NCBI RefSeq assembly: GCF_000255115.2
Contig: NC_018068.1
Span: 1,521,977-1,585,976, forward strand
Source: Desulfosporosinus acidiphilus SJ4
GTDB lineage: Bacteria > Bacillota > Desulfitobacteriia > Desulfitobacteriales > Desulfitobacteriaceae
Direction of reading: 5' to 3'
DNA: 64,000 bases
The translations under genes were made by a program, and so were the position numbers. Numbering within the stretch: the first letter of the stretch is position 1; each line of letters begins with the position of its first letter. Below the pieces are notes generated by a model. The model worked only from the letters and a program-made list of their open reading frames with translations, did no database searches and had not been told where the DNA came from. Shown here one piece after another: positions 13,900 to 63,693 of the stretch.

Positions 13900-14572
13900 A
13901 TGGAATATCAAGAGGAAGACTTTTTGCTGTTGTCCGGGATACAGCATTTCGTCTTTTGTAGGCGCCAGTGGGCCTTAATCCATATCGAACAGCAGTGGCA
14001 GGAAAATTTGCGCACCGTTGAGGGCGGTATCCTGCACGAGAAAACCCACGATTATACCATTAAGGAAAAACGAGGAGATTTGATCATATCCCGAAGCATG
14101 GGAATCTATTCCCGTACTTTAGGGATTACAGGGGCTTGTGATGTGGTGGAATTTCACAAGTCCCGGGACGGAGTTGCCCTCTATGGCCGGGAGGGAAACT
14201 ATAAGCCGGTTCCAGTGGAGTATAAACGGGGCAAGCCCAAGCAGGGCAATGCAGATGTGCTGCAATTATGTGCTCAGGCCATGTGTTTGGAAGAAATGCT
14301 ATTGTGTAGAATTCCCCGAAGGGTTTCTGTTTTATGGAGAACCTAAACGCAGGCTTAAAGTGATGCTTGACGAGGAGATCCGTGAACAGGTAAAGGGGAT
14401 TTGTAAAGAGATGCATGAGCTGTACGACAGAAGGTATACGCCTAAAGTAAAGCCGACCAAAGGCTGCAAAGCCTGTTCCCTTAGTGAACTTTGCCTGCCC
14501 AAGCTGTGTAAAAATCCATCGGCTCTGGCCTATATGAAGAAAAATGTTGCGGAAATTGAGGTTGATGAATGA
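13900..14572 (+). pseudogene. cas4: cas4 with a single-base frameshift
   Basis: Cas4 is a RecB-like exonuclease that selects PAM-containing prespacers and sets their orientation. The first frame (from ATG 13900, GAGG eight bases upstream) holds the first cluster cysteine (FVFCRRQW), the catalytic Asp in GACDVVEF and the E-x-K in VPVEYKRGK, then runs into a stop at 14344. The second frame, continuing to 14572, holds FYGEPKRR and the three remaining cluster cysteines (GCKACSLSELCLPKLC). Removing one C from CCCC at 14314-14317 restores RIPEGFLFYGEPKRR exactly as expected for the family. The gene is otherwise intact, so this is a recent mutation, a sequencing error, or rarely a programmed shift. 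Overlaps the cas1 start. Confidence 0.88.
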
Positions 14573-15600
14573 GAAAATTATTGAATACCCTCTATGTGAC
14601 CTCGCCTAATACTTATTTATCCCTTGATGGAGAAAATATTGTGATTTTAAAGGATGAGGCAGAGGCTCTGAGAGTTCCCCTGCATAATCTGGAGGGCATT
14701 ATTGCCTTTGGCTATACCGGCGCCAGTCCTGCTCTGATGGGTGCCTGCGCCAAGCGTAATATAGCCTTGAGTTTTATGAAGCCCAGCGGAAAATTCCTGG
14801 GCAGGGTTGTCGGCGAAGTTAAAGGCAATGTTACGTTGCGAAAGACTCAATATAGGTTATCAGAGGATGAAGCAGAGAGCCATAAAATTGCTCAATCCTT
14901 TATCTTGGGAAAAATATATAACGCCCGCTGGGTGGTGGAGCGGGCAACCAGGGATCATGGGGCTAGGCTGGATGTGGATAAATTGAAAGGAGTCTGCCAA
15001 ACCCTGGCTAACGCTTTGAAGCTGGTTGAAAAAAGTCAGGATTTAGAGCAGCTGCGAGGATTTGAAGGGGAAGCCGCGGCCCAGTACTTTCGAGTATTGG
15101 ACGATTTGATTCTTCAGCAAAAGGATGATTTTTATTTTAATTCCCGGAATAAACGCCCTCCCCTTGACAATGTTAATGCCATACTGTCCTTTGTCTATAC
15201 CCTTTTGGCCCATGAGGCAGCTGTGGCGTTGGAAACCGTTGGGCTTGATCCCTATGTGGGATTTCTGCACCGGGATAGGCCGGGAAGAATTTCCCTGGCC
15301 TTGGATCTGATGGAAGAGCTGCGGGCCGTGTATGCGGATCGGTTTGTTATTTCTTTAATCAATAAAAAGGTAGTCAATGGTGCCGGGTTTACCCGAATGG
15401 AAAATGGTGCGATCATTATGGATGATGATACTAGAAAAGCTGTTCTTAAGGCTTGGCAAAGTAGGAAACAGGAGGAGATTAGGCATCCCTTTCTGCAGGA
15501 AAAAATGGAATGGGGATTGGTGCCTTATGCCCAGGCTATGCTGCTGGCCAGGTTTATCCGGGGGGATTTGGACGGGTACCCGGCGTTTATGTGGAAGTAG
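14569..15600 (+). CDS. cas1: Cas1 integrase, type I-C
   Basis: Metal-dependent integrase that inserts new spacers with Cas2. 343 residues, the usual length. Catalytic residues are visible: Glu in FEGEAA (166-168), His in GFLHRDRPGR (234) and Asp in ISLALDLMEE (246). The start ATG overlaps the end of cas4 (ATGA) and cas2 begins 16 bases after its stop, so the adaptation genes form one translational unit. Confidence 0.96.
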   Translation: MRKLLNTLYVTSPNTYLSLDGENIVILKDEAEALRVPLHNLEGIIAFGYTGASPALMGACAKRNIALSFMKPSGKFLGRVVGEVKGNVTLRKTQYRLSEDEAESHKIAQSFILGKIYNARWVVERATRDHGARLDVDKLKGVCQTLANALKLVEKSQDLEQLRGFEGEAAAQYFRVLDDLILQQKDDFYFNSRNKRPPLDNVNAILSFVYTLLAHEAAVALETVGLDPYVGFLHRDRPGRISLALDLMEELRAVYADRFVISLINKKVVNGAGFTRMENGAIIMDDDTRKAVLKAWQSRKQEEIRHPFLQEKMEWGLVPYAQAMLLARFIRGDLDGYPAFMWK

Positions 15601-15616
15601 GTGAGAGGATATTTTA

Positions 15617-15901
15617 GTGCTTATCACTTATGACGTAAATACTCAAACAGCGGCAGGGAGAAAGCGGCTGCGTCAAGTTGCCAAACAATGTGTAAATTAC
15701 GGACAGCGTGTTCAGAATTCGGTCTTTGAATGCGTGTTGGATATGGCTAAGTTCCGCGAGGTTCAGCATAAGCTGGAGAAGATTATTGATACAGAGAAGG
15801 ATAGCTTGAGGTTCTATTTGTTGGGGAATAATTACAAGAATAAAGTTGAGCATATAGGCGTAAAGGCTTCCTTTGATGTTGAGGATACCCTGATCATTTA
15901 G
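15617..15901 (+). CDS. cas2: Cas2 adaptation protein
   Basis: 94 residues, ferredoxin-like subunit of the Cas1-Cas2 complex. The first strand LITYDVNT carries the conserved Asp. GTG start at 15617 with GAGAGGA (15602-15609) upstream. The stop is followed directly by the CRISPR leader, the standard I-C arrangement. Confidence 0.94.
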   Translation: MLITYDVNTQTAAGRKRLRQVAKQCVNYGQRVQNSVFECVLDMAKFREVQHKLEKIIDTEKDSLRFYLLGNNYKNKVEHIGVKASFDVEDTLII

Positions 15902-16070
15902 TGCGAATGTGAAGCGAACATAAAATCCTTGGGGGATTCGCACCTCGAGATAAGAGGGAATTTGTTGAAATATGTAGGGAATGTCGTGAAAACAATTATG
16001 TATATTAAAAAAATGGAAGAAGATGAATGAAATCTATCTATATAGAAGATAGTTTTTATTAGTTTTTGCT
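15902..16070 (+). promoter_or_regulatory. CRISPR leader
   Basis: AT-rich stretch between cas2 and the first repeat. It opens with an inverted repeat, GTGCGAA (15901-15907) and TTCGCAC (15937-15943), of the kind found at the start of I-C leaders. The A-rich part (15990-16070) would contain the array promoter and the integration signals. Confidence 0.75.
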
Positions 16071-18364
16071 GTCGCTCCCTACGTGGGAGCGTGGATTGAA
16101 ATTTTCCAAGCCAGATCCATGTGCCATGCTTTAAGGCGTCGCTCCCTACGTGGGAGCGTGGATTGAAATTAATAATGTACAGAAGTTTTCGGCTGAGATT
16201 TTAGTCGCTCCCTACGTGGGAGCGTGGATTGAAATTATTCCAAGAATCAAAAATGAATTTACCACCACACGTCGCTCCCTACGTGGGAGCGTGGATTGAA
16301 ATAAATGATCAATACACTATAACAGCAGACACCGACACAGTCGCTCCCTACGTGGGAGCGTGGATTGAAATTATAGCACAGGCCAGAGGATTCTCAAGAG
16401 GTTTTGTCGCTCCCTACGTGGGAGCGTGGATTGAAATAATAACGCCTTGTTCATTCCGATACTCATCAAACCAGTCGCTCCCTACGTGGGAGCGTGGATT
16501 GAAATAGATTTTAGATCGAACTCAATGTCATTGATGGACTGTCGCTCCCTACGTGGGAGCGTGGATTGAAATATCTTACACCATTTATCTCTTCTTCGGC
16601 AAGAGGGTCGCTCCCTACGTGGGAGCGTGGATTGAAATGTGTTTCCAGATTACTTTTATTGCATCTTCGAATGCGTCGCTCCCTACGTGGGAGCGTGGAT
16701 TGAAATATAAGCATGAGAACACCAACATTCGAGTTGATTAAGTCGCTCCCTACGTGGGAGCGTGGATTGAAATATAAGCATGAGAACACCAACATTCGAG
16801 TTGATTAAGTCGCTCCCTACGTGGGAGCGTGGATTGAAATTTTTTGATTCTAGACCAAATGAGCTCAAGGCTATGTCGCTCCCTACGTGGGAGCGTGGAT
16901 TGAAATTGGCTGCTGAAGGCCGTAGTTAGAAGTCGTTTTGTCGCTCCCTACGTGGGAGCGTGGATTGAAATCTAATTGGTGCGTCTGTACGAGTAATCAC
17001 AGCGGCAGTCGCTCCCTACGTGGGAGCGTGGATTGAAATTCTCAGAACACTCTCCATGCGCTCTGATTGCTTGTTGTCGCTCCCTACGTGGGAGCGTGGA
17101 TTGAAATATCTTTTGCCGCCAATACGACCTATTTCCTAACTGTCGCTCCCTACGTGGGAGCGTGGATTGAAATTCAAGGAAAACGAACGACGGCAACAAC
17201 TCCTGGGTCGCTCCCTACGTGGGAGCGTGGATTGAAATATCACGCACAATCTACACGGAACCGTCCCAGGACAGTCGCTCCCTACGTGGGAGCGTGGATT
17301 GAAATTCAAGGAAAACGAACGACGGCAACAACTCCTGGGTCGCTCCCTACGTGGGAGCGTGGATTGAAATCTCACGCAGGGCAAGGTCTAAGTCGTGGGC
17401 AAAGTCGCTCCCTACGTGGGAGCGTGGATTGAAATCCATTACCCCGCCTGGAGGTATCGGCACACCGGTAGTCGCTCCCTACGTGGGAGCGTGGATTGAA
17501 ATATACTGCAAGCAACTTGCTCGATGCTCTATCTTGTCGCTCCCTACGTGGGAGCGTGGATTGAAATATACTGCAAGCAACTTGCTCGATGCTCTATCTT
17601 GTCGCTCCCTACGTGGGAGCGTGGATTGAAATAAAGTAAAAATGAATCAAACGCCTCTCCTCCCTACGTCGCTCCCTACGTGGGAGCGTGGATTGAAATA
17701 GTTGATTGCCCAAATTATGAACCATTTGATAAACGTCGCTCCCTACGTGGGAGCGTGGATTGAAATATAATGTTGATCAAATTAGTGAATATCAATATCG
17801 TCGCTCCCTACGTGGGAGCGTGGATTGAAATGACATGGAATCCTTCATCAAATCGCTCCTGGCAACGTCGCTCCCTACGTGGGAGCGTGGATTGAAATTT
17901 ATCCAAAACTTGCGGTGTTACAATCGCGCTGAGTCGCTCCCTACGTGGGAGCGTGGATTGAAATCTTTTCTTCCTCGATAAACCGTTTCATTTGCTGTGG
18001 TCGCTCCCTACGTGGGAGCGTGGATTGAAATAGAAACAATCTGGTCAAACGTTTTATACACCGACACGTCGCTCCCTACGTGGGAGCGTGGATTGAAATA
18101 AATTTGGAGAGGAGGCAGGACTTGAACCTGCCAAGTCGCTCCCTACGTGGGAGCGTGGATTGAAATTTTAATGTCAACAGCCCCTTCGGATTTGTCGTTC
18201 TGTCGCTCCCTACGTGGGAGCGTGGATTGAAATCAGTTACCAAACAGCAACCGGCCTTTTTCCACTGAAGTCGCTCCCTACGTGGGAGCGTGGATGAAAT
18301 ACACCGAAAGGCATAGTTGCATTTGGTTTCATCGTCACTCCTATGTGGGAGCGTGGATTGAAAT
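16071..18364 (+). CRISPR. Type I-C CRISPR array, 35 repeats
   Basis: Repeat of 32 bases beginning GTCGCTCCC and ending GTGGATTGAAAT, with an internal palindrome CTCCC-tacgt-GGGAG. I count 33 identical copies (first at 16071, last perfect at 18202), then one lacking a T (18270-18300) and one with several changes (18334-18364). A further fragment, GATCCCTACATGGGGGCT, at about 18399-18416 marks older decay. The decayed end is far from cas2, so new spacers enter at the cas2 side. Spacers are mostly 33-37 bases. Three spacers occur twice: 16707/16774, 17174/17306 and 17503/17568. The spacer at 18100-18134 resembles the 3' part of a tRNA gene. The repeat matches the adjacent I-C cas genes. Confidence 0.98.
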
Positions 18365-18960: not shown

Positions 18961-19644
18961 CTATTTGTCGATGCCTCTTTTTGTATGAGGCATTACGGTT
19001 GCGCCGAGCATCCCGACGGCGACCAATATGCTGTCAGGTCCAAGGTTGGGGACTAATGTATGGAAACCGACGGCTGACCAATCGGGTTTCGCCAGAAATA
19101 TTTCAATAAAGTAGGAGATTCCAATGATCGCCACAAGACCTATGATAATTCTCTCAACGACTTGTTGACCGTAACGTTGTAAATACACAATAATAAACGT
19201 TATGCCAACTGTGACCAAACCGGCAGTTACCAGGGGTATACCGAATAGAAGGTATAGACCAAGCGTTGAGCCGAGAAACTCAGCCATATAGGTGGCAATG
19301 GCTGCAAAGAGCATAATTGTCCAAAGCATCATGTTAATAGGTTTCGAAAATACCCGTCCGCAATGGGTCGCCAAATCAACTCCGGTCACAATACCGAGTT
19401 TAGCGGAAAGGGTTTGAAGGAATATGGCCATCAAGTTGCTCCATAGGACAACCCAAACCAGATTATAGTTAAAATTTGAACCGGCGCTAATGTTCGTGGC
19501 AAAATTACCGGGATCAATATAGGCAACGCTGACAATAAACGCCGGGCCCAAATACTTCAATAAACCTCTTGCCTTTGACAGCCAGGTATCTTTGGGTAAG
19601 GGCAAGGTTAGGGGGGATTGAGATAAATTAAAACCTTCACTCAT
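18961..19644 (-). pseudogene. mntH: Truncated mntH (Nramp manganese transporter)
   Basis: The first ~223 residues are a good Nramp protein: the TM1 metal-binding motif DPGNF is present, and the TM6 motif MPH is reached at 18985-18993. Immediately after MPH the sequence changes to TKRGIDK and stops, where the family continues for about 200 more residues. The protein lacks half of TM6 and TM7-11 and cannot transport. The breakpoint falls in a small inverted repeat, ATGCCTC (18971-18977) and GAGGCAT (18987-18993). Divergent from the MntR-like regulator at 19827, the usual partner. Confidence 0.85.
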
Positions 19645-20559: not shown

Positions 20560-20588
20560 TTGACAGGAAAAGATGTAAGTGATAAATT
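20560..20588 (+). promoter_or_regulatory. Promoter ahead of the M-box
   Basis: TTGACA (20560-20565), 17 bases, TAAATT (20583-20588), about 20 bases before the start of the riboswitch. The bases from 20250 to 20559 hold no gene that I can see. Confidence 0.55.
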
Positions 20589-20607
20589 CATTACGACAAT
20601 TGAGATT

Positions 20608-20790
20608 TCTTCGTTAGGTGAGGCTCCTATACGAACAAAGGCCACTGCCCGGAAATGTCGAGAGACACCAATGGGTAGAACAGGTATTACCGGATTAAGG
20701 TTTTACATAATGTGGCTGAATGAATTTTCTCATTCTACGTCGTGTAGTGCCAAAGCTCAGAACGAGTGAGGAAAGTGGGTTTATTTTTCT
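20608..20790 (+). ncRNA. M-box (ykoK) magnesium riboswitch
   Basis: The conserved M-box core is present in order: CTTCGTTAGGTGAGGCTCCT (20609 onwards), then ACTGCCCGGAAATGTCGAGA, then GACACCAATGGGTAGAACAG. It is followed by a terminator at 20803-20842, so the RNA should switch off downstream transcription when magnesium is plentiful. The two main downstream genes are both of magnesium-transport type, consistent with that role. Confidence 0.9.
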
Positions 20791-20802
20791 TGTGCGCGCT
20801 TT

Positions 20803-20842
20803 ACAAAGCTTTCCGTTATTTTTGGAAAGCTTTGTTTTTTTG
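20803..20842 (+). terminator. Riboswitch-controlled intrinsic terminator
   Basis: ACAAAGCTTTCC and GGAAAGCTTTGT form a perfect 12-base-pair stem with a 9-base loop, followed by seven T residues. It is the expression platform of the M-box. Confidence 0.9.
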
Positions 20843-21091
20843 TATGGAGGTGGGACGATTGGGTGATGATGATCTTGATTCATGTAATTTTAATAGGCCT
20901 AAAGGTATATTAAAGGAAATAAAAGACATTATTAAATTAAACCAAGCAAGTTTCCGCTTACATCTTAACTTTCACATTCTTAATAGTAATCAAATACAAT
21001 ACTGTAATCTCCAAATGATATTGTATTCACTTATTACCAATTTTTAAAATGTATATCCCAGTCATTTTCCCATCAAAGAGGAGGTGGTTTT

Positions 21092-21175
21092 ATGGACGCA
21101 GGCCCTGAACAAAGAATAGTAAAATTATTAGACCAAGATATGGTTCATAAAATCACTTTGTTATTGGAGGGATAA
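21092..21175 (+). CDS. 27-residue leader ORF coupled to the MgtE-like gene
   Basis: ATG 21092 with a strong ribosome site GAGGAGGTGG (21079-21088) and 27 codons (start MDAGPEQRIVKLLDQ). Its stop overlaps the next ATG as TAATG and the codons before the stop carry GGAGG, the ribosome site of the following gene. Layout suggests translational coupling or a leader peptide. No family is recognised. Confidence 0.55.
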   Translation: MDAGPEQRIVKLLDQDMVHKITLLLEG

Positions 21176-21177
21176 TG

Positions 21178-22398
21178 ATGGAGCTATTGACGGATCTTTT
21201 TGTTAGCGAACTAATAGGTAAATATATTATTGATCGTAGTGGTCTAAAGCTCGGTAAAGTTAGGGATGTCTGGGTCGATCCAGAGACTACGTTTCCGACT
21301 GTTCGGGGATTGATTATTAAGTATAATGGGGAGCTCAAAGTTGTTCCTTGGAAAGAGATCTATATGCTAAGTCGACAGGTTGTCGCACTCCGGGTAATCG
21401 CTTCAGAAGTTCGTTTTGAAAGAGTATCTGAAGGTCATTTATATATTAGTGGGATACTCGATCGGCAGATTGTTGATATCAATGGAGCCAAGCTAGTTCG
21501 TGTCAATGATATTAAATTAGCGGGTAACAGCAAAGGAGTACATATTGTATCTATTGATGTTAGCTTCGTTGGTTTAATTCGGAGGCTCCTCCCTAGAGGA
21601 ATGTTTAGTATGCCAACAAGTGGAAAGAGGTTGCAGCCCCATTTTATAGGATGGGACATGGTGCAGTCGTTATCAACAGGGGGCGATAGCTTATCTTTAC
21701 GTGCTTCAGGAGATAAGCTATCAAAAATACATCCAGCAGATCTGGCGGATATTCTGGAGAACATTAGTCATTATGAACGATTGGAATTGTTTGAACAGTT
21801 AAATCCTGAAATGGCGGCGGACACTTTAGCTGAGGTCGACCCAGATGTTCAAAAATCCATTCTAAGACAAATAAATAAAGAGCGAGCTGCAGACATACTT
21901 GAAGAAATGGAGCAAGATGAGGCAGCAGACCTCCTATCCGAAATGAATGAGGATGATTCGGACCAACTATTAAGTTTAATGGAAAATGAAGCAGCTTCAG
22001 ACCTTCGTGAGTTGTTGGAATATGACGAAGGAACTGCAGGTAGTTTGATGACAACCGACTTTTTGGTGTTCTCTATAGAGCTTACGGCAGATGAAGTCAT
22101 TAAGCAGTTAAGAGAACTTGCTCCTGAGGCAGATTATATTTACTATCTTTATGCAGTTGACTCCGAAGGGCGATTAAAGGGAGTCATATCGCTAAGAGAA
22201 CTAATTATCTCTTCGCCTGAAACAAGAATTAGCGAATTAATGCATACCAAAGTGATTAGTGTACTGGCTGATGAGGATGAGAAAAAGATCCGCCGGTTAT
22301 TTTCTAAATACAGTCTATTAGCACTTCCAGTGATTGATAAATCCGATAAAGTGATAGGACTTATTACTGTGGATGATGTACTACAACTGAAAAATTAG
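21178..22398 (+). CDS. PRC-barrel/MgtE_N/CBS protein without a membrane domain
   Basis: About 406 residues: two PRC-barrel-like segments (~10-80 and 85-150), an MgtE_N helical domain (~180-285, beginning HPADLADILENI and containing EEMEQDEAADLLSEM), then the EGTAGSLMTTDF linker and a CBS pair (~290-405). In MgtE these cytosolic domains sense magnesium and gate a C-terminal channel, but here the protein ends at the CBS pair and has no membrane segment. It probably regulates a separate transporter, most likely the Nramp-related protein encoded 55 bases downstream. ATG 21178 is seven bases after GGAGG; 21175 is also possible. Under the M-box. Confidence 0.85.
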   Translation: MELLTDLFVSELIGKYIIDRSGLKLGKVRDVWVDPETTFPTVRGLIIKYNGELKVVPWKEIYMLSRQVVALRVIASEVRFERVSEGHLYISGILDRQIVDINGAKLVRVNDIKLAGNSKGVHIVSIDVSFVGLIRRLLPRGMFSMPTSGKRLQPHFIGWDMVQSLSTGGDSLSLRASGDKLSKIHPADLADILENISHYERLELFEQLNPEMAADTLAEVDPDVQKSILRQINKERAADILEEMEQDEAADLLSEMNEDDSDQLLSLMENEAASDLRELLEYDEGTAGSLMTTDFLVFSIELTADEVIKQLRELAPEADYIYYLYAVDSEGRLKGVISLRELIISSPETRISELMHTKVISVLADEDEKKIRRLFSKYSLLALPVIDKSDKVIGLITVDDVLQLKN

Positions 22399-22453
22399 GC
22401 GTTCATAGAAATGTTAAGATCATTTATGAAAAATTATAAGGGAAGTGAAATAT

Positions 22454-23704
22454 ATGAAGCTTAGTAAACTTTCATGGCGTAATATTCTGTTGTTTTTGGC
22501 CATAGTTGGACCTGGGATTATCACGGCCAATGTGGATAACGATGCTGGTGGAATTACAACCTACGCGGTAGCAGGCGCTCAGTTTGGTTATAAGTTTCTT
22601 TGGATCTTTATTCCAATGACATTGGCCTTGATCGTAGTCCAAGAAATGAGCGCCCGTATGGGGGCGGTTACTGGCAAAGGTCTTGCGGATCTTATTCGTG
22701 AGAATTTTGGAGTACGGTTGACGATTTTCATTTTAATAGGGCTCCTTATAGCAGACGTAGGGAATACAGTATCGGAGTTTGCTGGGGTGGCTTCCAGTAT
22801 GGAGGTCTTCGGGGTAAGTAAATATATCACCGTTCCGCTGGGGGCGCTCCTAGTATGGTTCTTGGTTGTTAAGGGGACATATCGGCGTGTAGAAAGAATT
22901 TTCCTGATTGCCAGTGCAATTTTTATAACTTATATTTTTGCTGGTTTTCTAGCCCACCCGAATTGGGGTGAGGTGGCAAAAGCTACATTTATTCCGAGCT
23001 TCAGTACAAATTCTGAATATCTTGCGATGTTTGTTGGTTTGGTCGGTACTACAATCGCTCCCTGGATGCAGTTCTATATTCAGTCTGCCATCGTTGAGAA
23101 AGGAGTGACAGCCAAAGAGTATAAGTTTTCACGCCTAGATGTTATTTTTGGTTGTTTCATTACGGATATCGTGGCTGTTTTTATCATCGTTACAACTGCG
23201 GCAACATTGCATACCGCAGGTGTCTCCATCAATGATGCTAAAGATGCTGCCATCGCCTTAAGGCCACTAGCTGGACAATACGCTTCAATACTATTTGCCT
23301 TCGGGCTTTTCAATGCGTCAATCTTCGCAGCCACAATTTTACCGCTAGCGACGGCTTACTATGTGTGCGAAGCACTGGGGTTTGAGGCAGGCGTTGATAA
23401 GTCTTTCAGCGAAGCACCACAGTTTTATACCTTATATACGATTATAATAATCTTAGGGGCTTTGATTATCCTTATTCCCAATGCACCACTAGTTCTAATT
23501 ATGCTTTGGTCTCAGGTCATCAATGGTGTTCTTCTACCGTTTGTTCTCGTGTTTATGCTGGTTCTTATCAATAAAAAGAGAATCATGGGAGACTATACAA
23601 ACTCCAAATTCTTTAATGGAGTTGCATGGAGCACAACTGCGGTCATGGTGACCCTGACACTTTTATTGGTAGTAACCTCACTTTGGCCAAACTTTTTGGG
23701 ATAA
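22454..23704 (+). CDS. Nramp-related magnesium transporter (NRMT type)
   Basis: About 416 residues with 11 predicted membrane helices and overall Nramp similarity, but without the transition-metal motifs. Where TM1 of MntH has DPGN, this protein has VDNDAGG (27-33), and where TM6 has MPH it has TIAPWMQFY (~199-207). Loss of the TM6 methionine is a mark of the Nramp-related magnesium transporters described from clostridia and Eggerthella. Position under an M-box and next to MgtE-type sensor domains supports Mg2+ as substrate. ATG 22454 has GGAAG eight bases upstream; GTG 22445 is an alternative. A terminator follows at 23755. Confidence 0.87.
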   Translation: MKLSKLSWRNILLFLAIVGPGIITANVDNDAGGITTYAVAGAQFGYKFLWIFIPMTLALIVVQEMSARMGAVTGKGLADLIRENFGVRLTIFILIGLLIADVGNTVSEFAGVASSMEVFGVSKYITVPLGALLVWFLVVKGTYRRVERIFLIASAIFITYIFAGFLAHPNWGEVAKATFIPSFSTNSEYLAMFVGLVGTTIAPWMQFYIQSAIVEKGVTAKEYKFSRLDVIFGCFITDIVAVFIIVTTAATLHTAGVSINDAKDAAIALRPLAGQYASILFAFGLFNASIFAATILPLATAYYVCEALGFEAGVDKSFSEAPQFYTLYTIIIILGALIILIPNAPLVLIMLWSQVINGVLLPFVLVFMLVLINKKRIMGDYTNSKFFNGVAWSTTAVMVTLTLLLVVTSLWPNFLG

Positions 23705-23754
23705 ACAAACACCTAATAAATTAAATAATATGCTTCAGTTTCATATGAGTTAGG

Positions 23755-23785
23755 CCGCCTGTTTGAAGTCAGGCGGTTATTACTT
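23755..23785 (+). terminator. Terminator of the magnesium operon
   Basis: CCGCCTG (23755-23761) and CAGGCGG (23770-23776) form a stem followed by TTATTACTT. A near-identical element occurs at 26535. Confidence 0.6.
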
Positions 23786-63257: not shown

Positions 63258-63462
63258 TACCTTCCTTCAAGCGCATTAACCCCCAGTATTCTACTTTTAG
63301 ACAGCCTACTATCTAGAGTATTCAGCTTGATTATTCCGTGTTACTTATGACATTAAAGTTAATTCATGAAGAAAAATGCCGTCGTTTAAAATTCTTAGAG
63401 GTCAACTAGGCAAAGGAATAGGTTTTATGTTACAATATAAAAAACTGAATAATACGGAATAA

Positions 63463-63625
63463 GTGATGCTTTCTTGAGGGAAAGCATTGAAAAGGGAAGT
63501 CAGTTAAAAGCTGACGCGGTGCCCGCCACTGTAAAAGGGAGTTAACTCACATGTGTCACTGGATTTGCTGGGAAGACGTGAGTTAATGTGGATCTTGAGC
63601 CAGGAGACCTGCTTCTTCCGCATAA
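63463..63625 (+). ncRNA. Cobalamin riboswitch
   Basis: Conserved blocks in order: GCGGTGCCCGCCACTGTAAA (63516 onwards), TGCTGGGAAGACG and GAGCCAGGAGACCTGC (63597-63612, the B12 box). A terminator follows at 63694. The downstream gene is cbiM, so it should lower cobalt uptake when B12 is plentiful. Confidence 0.95.
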
Positions 63626-63693
63626 AGCTACCTACGGGAAGTTAGGGAGGTGTATGACTGTGTTCTCGATTTTGCTGAATACTGGTTGAACAT

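Follow-up and report, generated by a model that had tools for sequence, protein, structure and literature searches.

The DNA analysed here (the window) is a stretch of 64,000 nucleotides (nt) from Desulfosporosinus acidiphilus SJ4 (NC_018068.1, positions 1,521,977 to 1,585,976). Its positions 20560-23704 carry, with all parts on one strand, what reads from sequence as a Mg2+-starvation operon of the NrmT kind (Table 1): an M-box riboswitch, a short leader open reading frame (ORF), referred to as the mini-ORF, the gene of a soluble MgtE-like protein, referred to as the sensor, and the gene of an Nramp-related Mg2+ transporter (NRMT). This kind of operon is already known, since Shin et al. 2014 (PMC4072509) had reported the gene pair with its M-box and suggested feedback. 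The sensor was present in 239 of 239 genomes carrying NRMT over three groups, usually adjacent to NRMT and unlinked in about 20. A lasting NRMT-sensor partnership is strongly supported, because the genes co-occur in all of these genomes, also where they are not neighbours.

The M-box score (Table 1) stands against an RF00380 gathering score of 44 (E 4e-36), and the expression platform is an intrinsic terminator; an earlier sequence-only reading of the window had placed both before the sensor gene. The window has 10 terminator-like sites, where shuffled sequences averaged 2.9. For promoter-like sites as a class there was no enrichment (13 against 11.7).

Table 1. Features of the NrmT-type operon in the window
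Feature	Position	Strand	Evidence or remark
Promoter-like site of sigma-70-like type, TTGACA-17-TAAATT, extended TG	20560..20588	+	consensus scan
M-box Mg2+ riboswitch aptamer, RF00380	20603..20777	+	cmscan, 157.4 bits
Intrinsic terminator, M-box expression platform	20803..20835	+	13 pairs, then T tract
Leader mini-ORF MDAGPEQRIVKLLDQDMVHKITLLLEG, Shine-Dalgarno sequence GGAGGTGG	21092..21175	+	stop overlaps sensor start (TAATG)
Soluble sensor: tandem PRC barrel, MgtE_N, two CBS; without distal plug helix or channel	21175..22398	+	Pfam, AlphaFold2, PDB matches
NRMT, Nramp-related Mg2+ transporter	22445..23704	+	Pfam, EleNRMT match, DxxG-TxxA motif
Terminator-like hairpin 3' of NRMT	23753..23778	+	terminator scan

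Anatomy of the sensor and the transporter

The sensor ORF encodes 407 residues with PRC, MgtE_N and CBS matches (the last in two stretches) above the Pfam cut-offs, in agreement with the soluble PRC/MgtE_N/CBS protein described from sequence alone. The Pfam search revealed no channel domain PF01769, and the protein ends three residues past the CBS match. Since this domain is absent behind the CBS domains, the sensor is not an MgtE, even though it has the MgtE_N and CBS domains of that channel. The sequence-only reading had taken it for half of a split MgtE. This held as far as a sensing half without its channel half is concerned; the protein is not simply split, as a tandem PRC barrel precedes the MgtE-like part and the distal plug helix is missing.

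The PRC domain scored 43.1 bits for PF05239 (cut-off 21.2). The second barrel (residues 91-165) is based on a structural match to PDB entry 8qzo over both halves, which also gave the PRC fold, and on RimM matches far below their cut-offs. An AlphaFold2 model of the whole sensor (mean predicted local distance difference test, pLDDT, 90; predicted template modelling score, pTM, 0.62) matched best the MgtE cytosolic domain with Mg2+ (2yvy; Z 26.7, root-mean-square deviation, rmsd, 2.3, 238 residues aligned). Because this match says little about residues 1-170, residues 1-171 were modelled separately (pLDDT 88, pTM 0.82), and their best PDB match was to the PRC domains of CdpB1/CdpB2, which are archaeal cell-division proteins (8qzo; Z 12.7, rmsd 2.7, 128 aligned). 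The MgtE_N and CBS parts of the sensor have no counterpart in this match. Further matches at Z 6-8, to several PRC proteins and to reaction-centre H subunits, may reflect only a common arrangement of the modelled fold. Positions at least 90% identical in 68 diverse sensors numbered 15 in the second PRC half (91-165), 1 in residues 1-90 and 10 in MgtE_N, which makes the second PRC half a candidate contact surface.

Site residues of TtMgtE, as given in the accessible part of PMC5882242, were mapped through alignment onto 122 sensors passing a length and completeness filter and onto 19 MgtE controls (TtMgtE numbering). The Mg6 residue D95 was found in all 122 sensors and in 9 of the controls. The Mg4 residues D247 and D91 were found in 113 and 109 sensors, respectively, and in all 19 controls, and an acid at Mg7 position 59 in 113 sensors and 15 controls. 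On the other hand, the Mg5 residue D226 was absent in 109 sensors and present in 13, compared with 13 controls having and 6 lacking it. At the other Mg5 position, D250, 71 sensors have an acid (Asp in 22 of these), and D250 was found in 14 controls. Past D247 the tail is 6-38 residues long in sensors and 200-215 in the 19 MgtE proteins, and the distal-plug residues E258 (Mg2) and D259 (Mg3) fall past the C-terminus of the window sensor. Among ATP-site residues (from the available text of PMC5529423, where Phe227 stacks on ATP), Y170 occurs in 82 of 122 sensors against 4 of 19 controls and R187 in 79 against 7; with these residues rarer in the controls than in the sensors, the control alignment around them may be poor. 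Compared with the MgtE channel (2yvx, 2zy9, 5x9h), the sensor thus shares MgtE_N, CBS, the fold and the Mg4, Mg6 and Mg7 residues, whereas it lacks the distal plug, the channel domain and mostly D226 of Mg5, and adds the tandem PRC barrel.

The NRMT ORF encodes 419 residues (alternative start ATG at 22454) and matches Nramp PF01566. Its closest PDB sequence is EleNRMT (7qia, 412.6 bits over residues 12-411), the next entry being an MntH with 103.9 bits, so that it is nearer to a characterised NRMT than to MntH. Alignments show DAGG in place of DPGN and APW in place of MPH, confirming the loss of both motifs noted from sequence alone. DAGG together with TTIA gives the DxxG-TxxA/T binding site, and a DxxG-TxxA motif instead of DPGN-AxxM marks NRMTs, EleNRMT included, according to the available text of PMC8806188. 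Of 168 Nramp-type sequences from the collected loci, 163 scored above 380 bits; the TxxA/T half is present in all 163 and the DxxG half was missed by the pattern in 11. The window transporter is therefore assigned to the NRMTs, with Mg2+ as its predicted substrate.

Co-retention and natural variants of the pair

In the window's class (82 genomes; genomes, contigs and loci are cited by our G, C and L handles), NRMT was found in 38 genomes, all of them with the sensor; three had the sensor only (G039, G040, G045) and 41 had neither. NRMT genes adjoined a sensor in 37 of 41 cases, compared with 0 of 53 other Nramp matches. These class counts leave out sensor matches starting behind query residue 170 (MgtE-like), two N-terminal pieces of G011, the NRMT fragments G033:C130, G000:C3:1598804 and G001:C1:3302675, and short NRMT pieces at G000:C3:1588547, 1603394 and 1430993.

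Two further surveys covered genomes at least 90% complete, with MgtE-type matches and 32-38%-identical Nramp matches omitted. Among 151 Terriglobia genomes NRMT was present in 126, the sensor in at least 127 and both in 126, with neither in 24 among the matches listed; at least one genome (G134, sensor 177 nt from a contig end) has the sensor only. The Terriglobia sensor lies within 600 nt upstream of NRMT in 84 genomes, at 0.6-8 kb in 25, further off on one contig in 3 and on a different contig in 14, where G158 and G184 may be cut by contig ends. Among 195 Nitrospirota genomes NRMT was present in 75, the sensor in at least 79 and both in 75, with neither in 116 among the matches listed and the sensor only in at least four. 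Here 71 of 75 sensors lie within 600 nt upstream of NRMT (median gap 14 nt) and the remaining four pairs are on different contigs, one of them (G246) partial. The co-occurrence counts and Fisher p values ignore phylogeny, and partial genes (e.g. G055, G125, G141, G162, G246, G269, G355) were counted as present. These surveys bear out the sensor-transporter pairing claimed by the sequence-only reading, which had proposed looking for it across genomes.

Among named NRMT loci, the best 80 of 567 were examined; 69 contain a sensor and 18 an M-box. Of the 11 loci without a sensor, L096 (G002) and L097 (G001) belong to genomes with a solo sensor elsewhere, and eight of the other nine genomes have a sensor elsewhere (of the second type only in G084; the G089 sensor ends at a contig edge); in the ninth locus, L125 (G088), NRMT stands at a contig end. 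Sensor and NRMT occupy separate loci in G001, G002 and G038, with an M-box at both in G001 and G002 and none found at the G038 sensor. Unlinked Terriglobia pairs are 54 kb (G085), 199 kb (G127) and 957 kb (G111) apart, and the Nitrospirota survey added G082, G353 and G401.

The window's genome has three M-boxes and three sensors, each M-box upstream of a sensor; the sensor query found only these three at E 0.001, in a search outside which channel-only MgtE falls. NRMT follows two of them and the third is solo (L015:3131-4432). Within the genus, orthologues of the solo sensor stand after that same upstream neighbour and have an NRMT partner (e.g. G017, G013), and at the end of the solo gene 20 residues match the NRMT start with 55% identity (E 0.013, best in 15 kb). 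Given the paired orthologues and this match, the NRMT of the third sensor was probably deleted in place, leaving a remnant of about 20 codons beside the M-box sensor. Comparison of the solo sensor with its nearest paired orthologue compared (G024) gave a ratio of nonsynonymous to synonymous differences (pN/pS) of 0.068, with synonymous (dS) and nonsynonymous (dN) divergences of 1.22 and 0.042, indicating that the solo gene is under strong purifying constraint, as judged from these sequences.

Another variant was found in G347 (Nitrospirota), in which one 607-residue ORF joins PRC, MgtE_N, CBS and the MgtE channel. No NRMT match was found in this genome at E 1e-70. The sensor part of the ORF clusters in the tree with two NRMT-paired sensors (local support 0.96), and the fusion has D226, D250, E258 and D259 of MgtE, read by eye. 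In G337, also without an NRMT match, the first-type sensor is shortened to 376 residues. At five loci a transporter of a second Nramp-related subfamily, with 36-39% identity to the window NRMT, occurs with a second sensor type, and in 5/5 the transporter precedes the sensor, opposite to the order in the window.

Two apparent sensor-NRMT fusions, L128 and L162, were rejected, their long frames crossing the neighbouring sensor gene in another frame. In L259 (G190) and L260 (G167) a stop codon (one TAG in G167) separates sensor and NRMT, which share a reading frame.

Possible role of the sensor

We lean towards regarding the sensor not as a piece of an MgtE channel but as a regulatory subunit that can dissociate from NRMT and would gate the transporter in trans, as implied by the sequence-only reading. 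Gating in trans is the best mechanism partly because in G347, where no NRMT was matched, the same sensor is joined to an MgtE channel in one protein. When Mg2+ is low, the M-box would allow transcription to proceed and NRMT would import Mg2+. The sensor would dock on the cytoplasmic face of NRMT, perhaps by the tandem PRC barrel replacing the missing plug, and once docked would slow import, providing fast protein-level feedback atop the slower RNA switch.

Several observations weigh against this proposal. An extra sensor in G008:C4, with no M-box detected, precedes a homologue of KimA (L178:1523-4909; 6s3k, 372 bits), which we take to be another APC-type transporter. No NRMT-sensor fusion was found in the best 80 of the 567 named loci. 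At least eight genomes have sensors and no NRMT (G039, G040, G045, G134, G301, G337, G347, G349); among these, the G045 and G134 sensors end at contig edges, and those of G301 and G349 have transporters of the second Nramp-related subfamily as partners. G084 has NRMT without a first-type sensor, its only sensor being of the second type beside a second-subfamily transporter. The F227 position is Leu in 109 of 122 sensors, which says little, as Phe occurs in only 3 of 19 MgtE controls. According to the available passages of Shin et al. (PMC4072509), NrmT works without the fragment, and co-expressing the Acidobacterium capsulatum fragment brought no additional rescue; from an inhibitory subunit, better rescue would not be anticipated. 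EleNRMT moved Mg2+ in vitro, and the accessible text of PMC8806188 names no sensor partner for it.

Alternatively, the sensor could read cytosolic Mg2+ (or Mn2+) and act on other targets, for instance as a metal chaperone or by regulating other transporters, NRMT merely sharing its regulon; we consider this unlikely, though it is the alternative that survives best. Chaperone activity is a possibility given by Shin et al. themselves, in the available part of PMC4072509. In agreement with such targets, solo sensors stand before pfkA in G001, G038 and G039 (by Pfam for G001), and the second sensor of G008 precedes the KimA homologue. Solo sensors also lie in G083 between two genes, presumably gltX-like and apt-like, and in G082, G337 and G347 beside one gene type that we take to be mtnA-like. 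However, the sensor is kept in all 239 NRMT genomes of the three samples, and G001, G038, G082 and G083 have NRMT elsewhere.

That the pair handles Mn2+ instead of Mg2+ appears improbable. With the A. capsulatum NrmT a Mn2+ defect was rescued completely and a Mg2+ defect only when low millimolar Mg2+ was supplied (PMC4072509), and in the window's genome one mntH copy is broken and lies next to an MntR-like gene. On the other hand, the unit here is under a full M-box, which marks Mg2+ transporters according to Shin et al. (PMC4072509), and a full-length mntH-like ORF is present at C3:1601266.

Very improbable is operon hitch-hiking, in which only the Mg2+ regulon is shared and the proteins are not functionally coupled: adjacency itself is inherited, and the correlation between tree distances over 100 adjacent pairs (r 0.77; highest value in shuffles 0.18) includes shared descent and, because shared descent alone can yield it, is only weak evidence, whereas co-retention after unlinking, the lack of any NRMT-only genome in the three samples and the own diverged sensor of the second Nramp-related subfamily, in opposite gene order in all its loci, argue against it in tests that ignore phylogeny.

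Leader mini-ORF, neighbouring features and relation to earlier work

The sequence-only reading overlooked the mini-ORF, which is led by a Shine-Dalgarno sequence (SD). In M-box leaders of sensors from the window's class it lies between terminator and sensor behind a strong SD, typically AGGAGGTGGTTTT, and mostly starts with MD[S/A/T][G/D]P. The pattern M[D/G][A/S/T/G/P][G/D]P was found in 35 of 38 such leaders, 33 with Asp and two (the solo sensor of G000, and G024) with Gly at position 2. A looser look added G073 (MDTGP) and G056 (MEADP), giving 37 of 38; G068 has none. Leaders of the mgtL type are marked by early codons for acidic residues and proline in a short SD-led ORF upstream of a Mg2+ gene, a trait that 35 of the 38 show by the first pattern. 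Conservation drops past codon 5, and the third positions of codons 2 and 4 vary; since codon positions 1-2 are fixed by the search pattern, the free third positions and the drop are the informative features. The SD plus [start]D[S/A/T][G/D]P had 35 distinct matches, 34 before sensor genes and one (L225) before mgtE, in a scan that covered sequence mostly around sensors, NRMTs and M-boxes. In the window the motif occurs only once, compared with 0 in 100 dinucleotide shuffles, and a single-base shuffle control of the pattern gave 0.04 of 77. Both ends could be placed in 24 leaders: the sensor starts directly after the mini-ORF stop in 12, 11-14 nt on in seven, 36 and 62 nt on in two, and with a larger overlap in two; in the window the overlap is 1 nt. 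The G043 leader has the mini-ORF, and no M-box was found in it even at E 1.

A broader motif (M, D or E, P within three positions) was present in 34 of 38 sensor, 4 of 4 corA and 1 of 4 mgtE M-box leaders. It was found in 0 of 2 partial mgtE, 0 of 4 mgtA-type, 0 of 2 ABC, 0 of 2 NRMT-only, 0 of 1 mgtC-first and 2 of 18 named leaders; these classes rest on family searches for three loci (one corA, one mgtA, one ABC) and on similarity for the remainder. In all sequence scanned, M-box leaders included, it occurred in 54 of 1119 SD-led short ORFs. The corA-type M-box loci L181, L182, L183 and L184 carry SD-led mini-ORFs MDGGP, MDGDP or MDSLP, all with GTG starts, and three mgtA leaders have MDGGSS, MDEGSS and METDG.

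In the close relative G011, locus L078 (G011:C607) has an SD-led short ORF MSTDDDPDL... past the terminator; the gene between the M-box terminator and the sensor is presumably MgtC-like. The mini-ORFs MEPDSERPP of L102 (past its M-box) and MSADPEPPP of L282 (G080) resemble the EPDP motif of mgtL.

According to the available parts of the respective papers, mgtL has a destabilising EPDP motif with ribosome drop-off at low Mg2+ (PMC11282234), mgtQ has acidic residues at 2 and 5 and proline at 4 (PMC8092293), and a mycobacterial M-box controls the conserved upstream ORF rv1805A (PMC12810186). Like mgtL and mgtQ, the mini-ORF is a short ORF in or near a Mg2+-transport leader with early acidic residues and proline. 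It differs from them in lineage and sequence, in having only one or two early acidic residues (in the window a single Asp ahead of Pro, unlike EPDP), and in the close spacing of its stop and the next start. Like rv1805A it is conserved behind an M-box, the two sequences being unrelated. No paper placing MDSGP or MDAGP beside an M-box or leader peptide was found in the open-access literature, and no other report of such a mini-ORF by title or abstract start among the matches listed.

By analogy the mini-ORF may let the ribosome act as a second Mg2+ checkpoint. A single early Asp is perhaps not enough to destabilise the ribosome, and simple translational coupling of mini-ORF and sensor is a plainer reading than ribosome sensing. 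With mini-ORFs also behind M-boxes of the unrelated corA and one mgtE, the mini-ORF would be a portable Mg2+ control element. We propose only tentatively, and with more doubt than confidence, that M-box operons of this lineage would have three successive Mg2+ checkpoints (the aptamer, the ribosome on the sensor-coupled mini-ORF, and the sensor gating NRMT or, elsewhere, related LeuT-fold transporters), the mini-ORF being a portable Gram-positive element comparable to mgtL.

Further features were noted around the operon and at related loci. Fragments of a broken mntH lie about 47 kb apart at window 18961-19644 (-) and C3:1588547-1589170 (-) (L018:2521-3192), and the order of these N- and C-terminal pieces, both on the minus strand, suggests a rearrangement. 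The full-length mntH-like ORF at C3:1601266 has an mntR-like neighbour, and near these genes are two NRMT remnants (L018:12811-13215, at C3:1598804, and C3:1603394), as if from a decayed copy of a duplicated mntH-mntR-NRMT block. L179 (G016:C24) and L180 (G041:C16) have an M-box before an ABC transporter (permease with BPD_transp_1; best NCBIfam match of the ATPase SaoA, below cut-off), possibly an M-box-controlled ABC system. In L218:1532-4996 (-) (G092, Terriglobia) a 1155-residue ORF fuses a membrane-protein-like N-terminal half, without a Pfam match, to a complete MgtE. At window positions 14569-17629, Cas1- and Cas2-like ORFs precede ORFs rich in repeats, which by eye resemble a CRISPR (clustered regularly interspaced short palindromic repeats) array. 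A cobalamin riboswitch lies at 63444-63630, and the ORFs after it, continuing into L018, are what we take to be a cobalt energy-coupling factor transporter operon.

The pairing and gating idea is not new. In its available parts, the paper of Shin et al. 2014 (PMC4072509) describes M-boxes upstream of Nramp-related genes, demonstrates Mg2+ transport, reports that most group members adjoin a gene homologous to the MgtE N-terminal domain, and speculates that this fragment provides cytoplasmic feedback or is a chaperone. The window operon shares with those NrmT operons (Ca_c0685 and others) the M-box, the soluble MgtE N-terminal-like gene and the Nramp-related Mg2+ transporter, whereas the PRC barrel, the co-retention after unlinking, the sensor-MgtE channel fusion and the leader mini-ORF were not seen in those parts. 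No later paper taking up the MgtE-like fragment was found among titles, abstract starts and passages of the open-access literature. New here are the co-retention in all NRMT genomes of the three samples, the NRMT remnant beside the third sensor, the G347 fusion, the sensor residue pattern and the leader mini-ORF.

The fragment, so far known as a common neighbour, has thus become a partner retained by all NRMT genomes of the three samples. Shin et al. left its role open, and the co-retention suggests that it is likely a regulatory subunit of this whole class of Mg2+ transporters, with concrete pairs, residues and natural variants now available for testing. If gating is true, the sensing half of a channel works as a detached subunit of a carrier unrelated to it, and if the mini-ORF has a function, Mg2+ would be sensed in a single operon by RNA, ribosome and protein.

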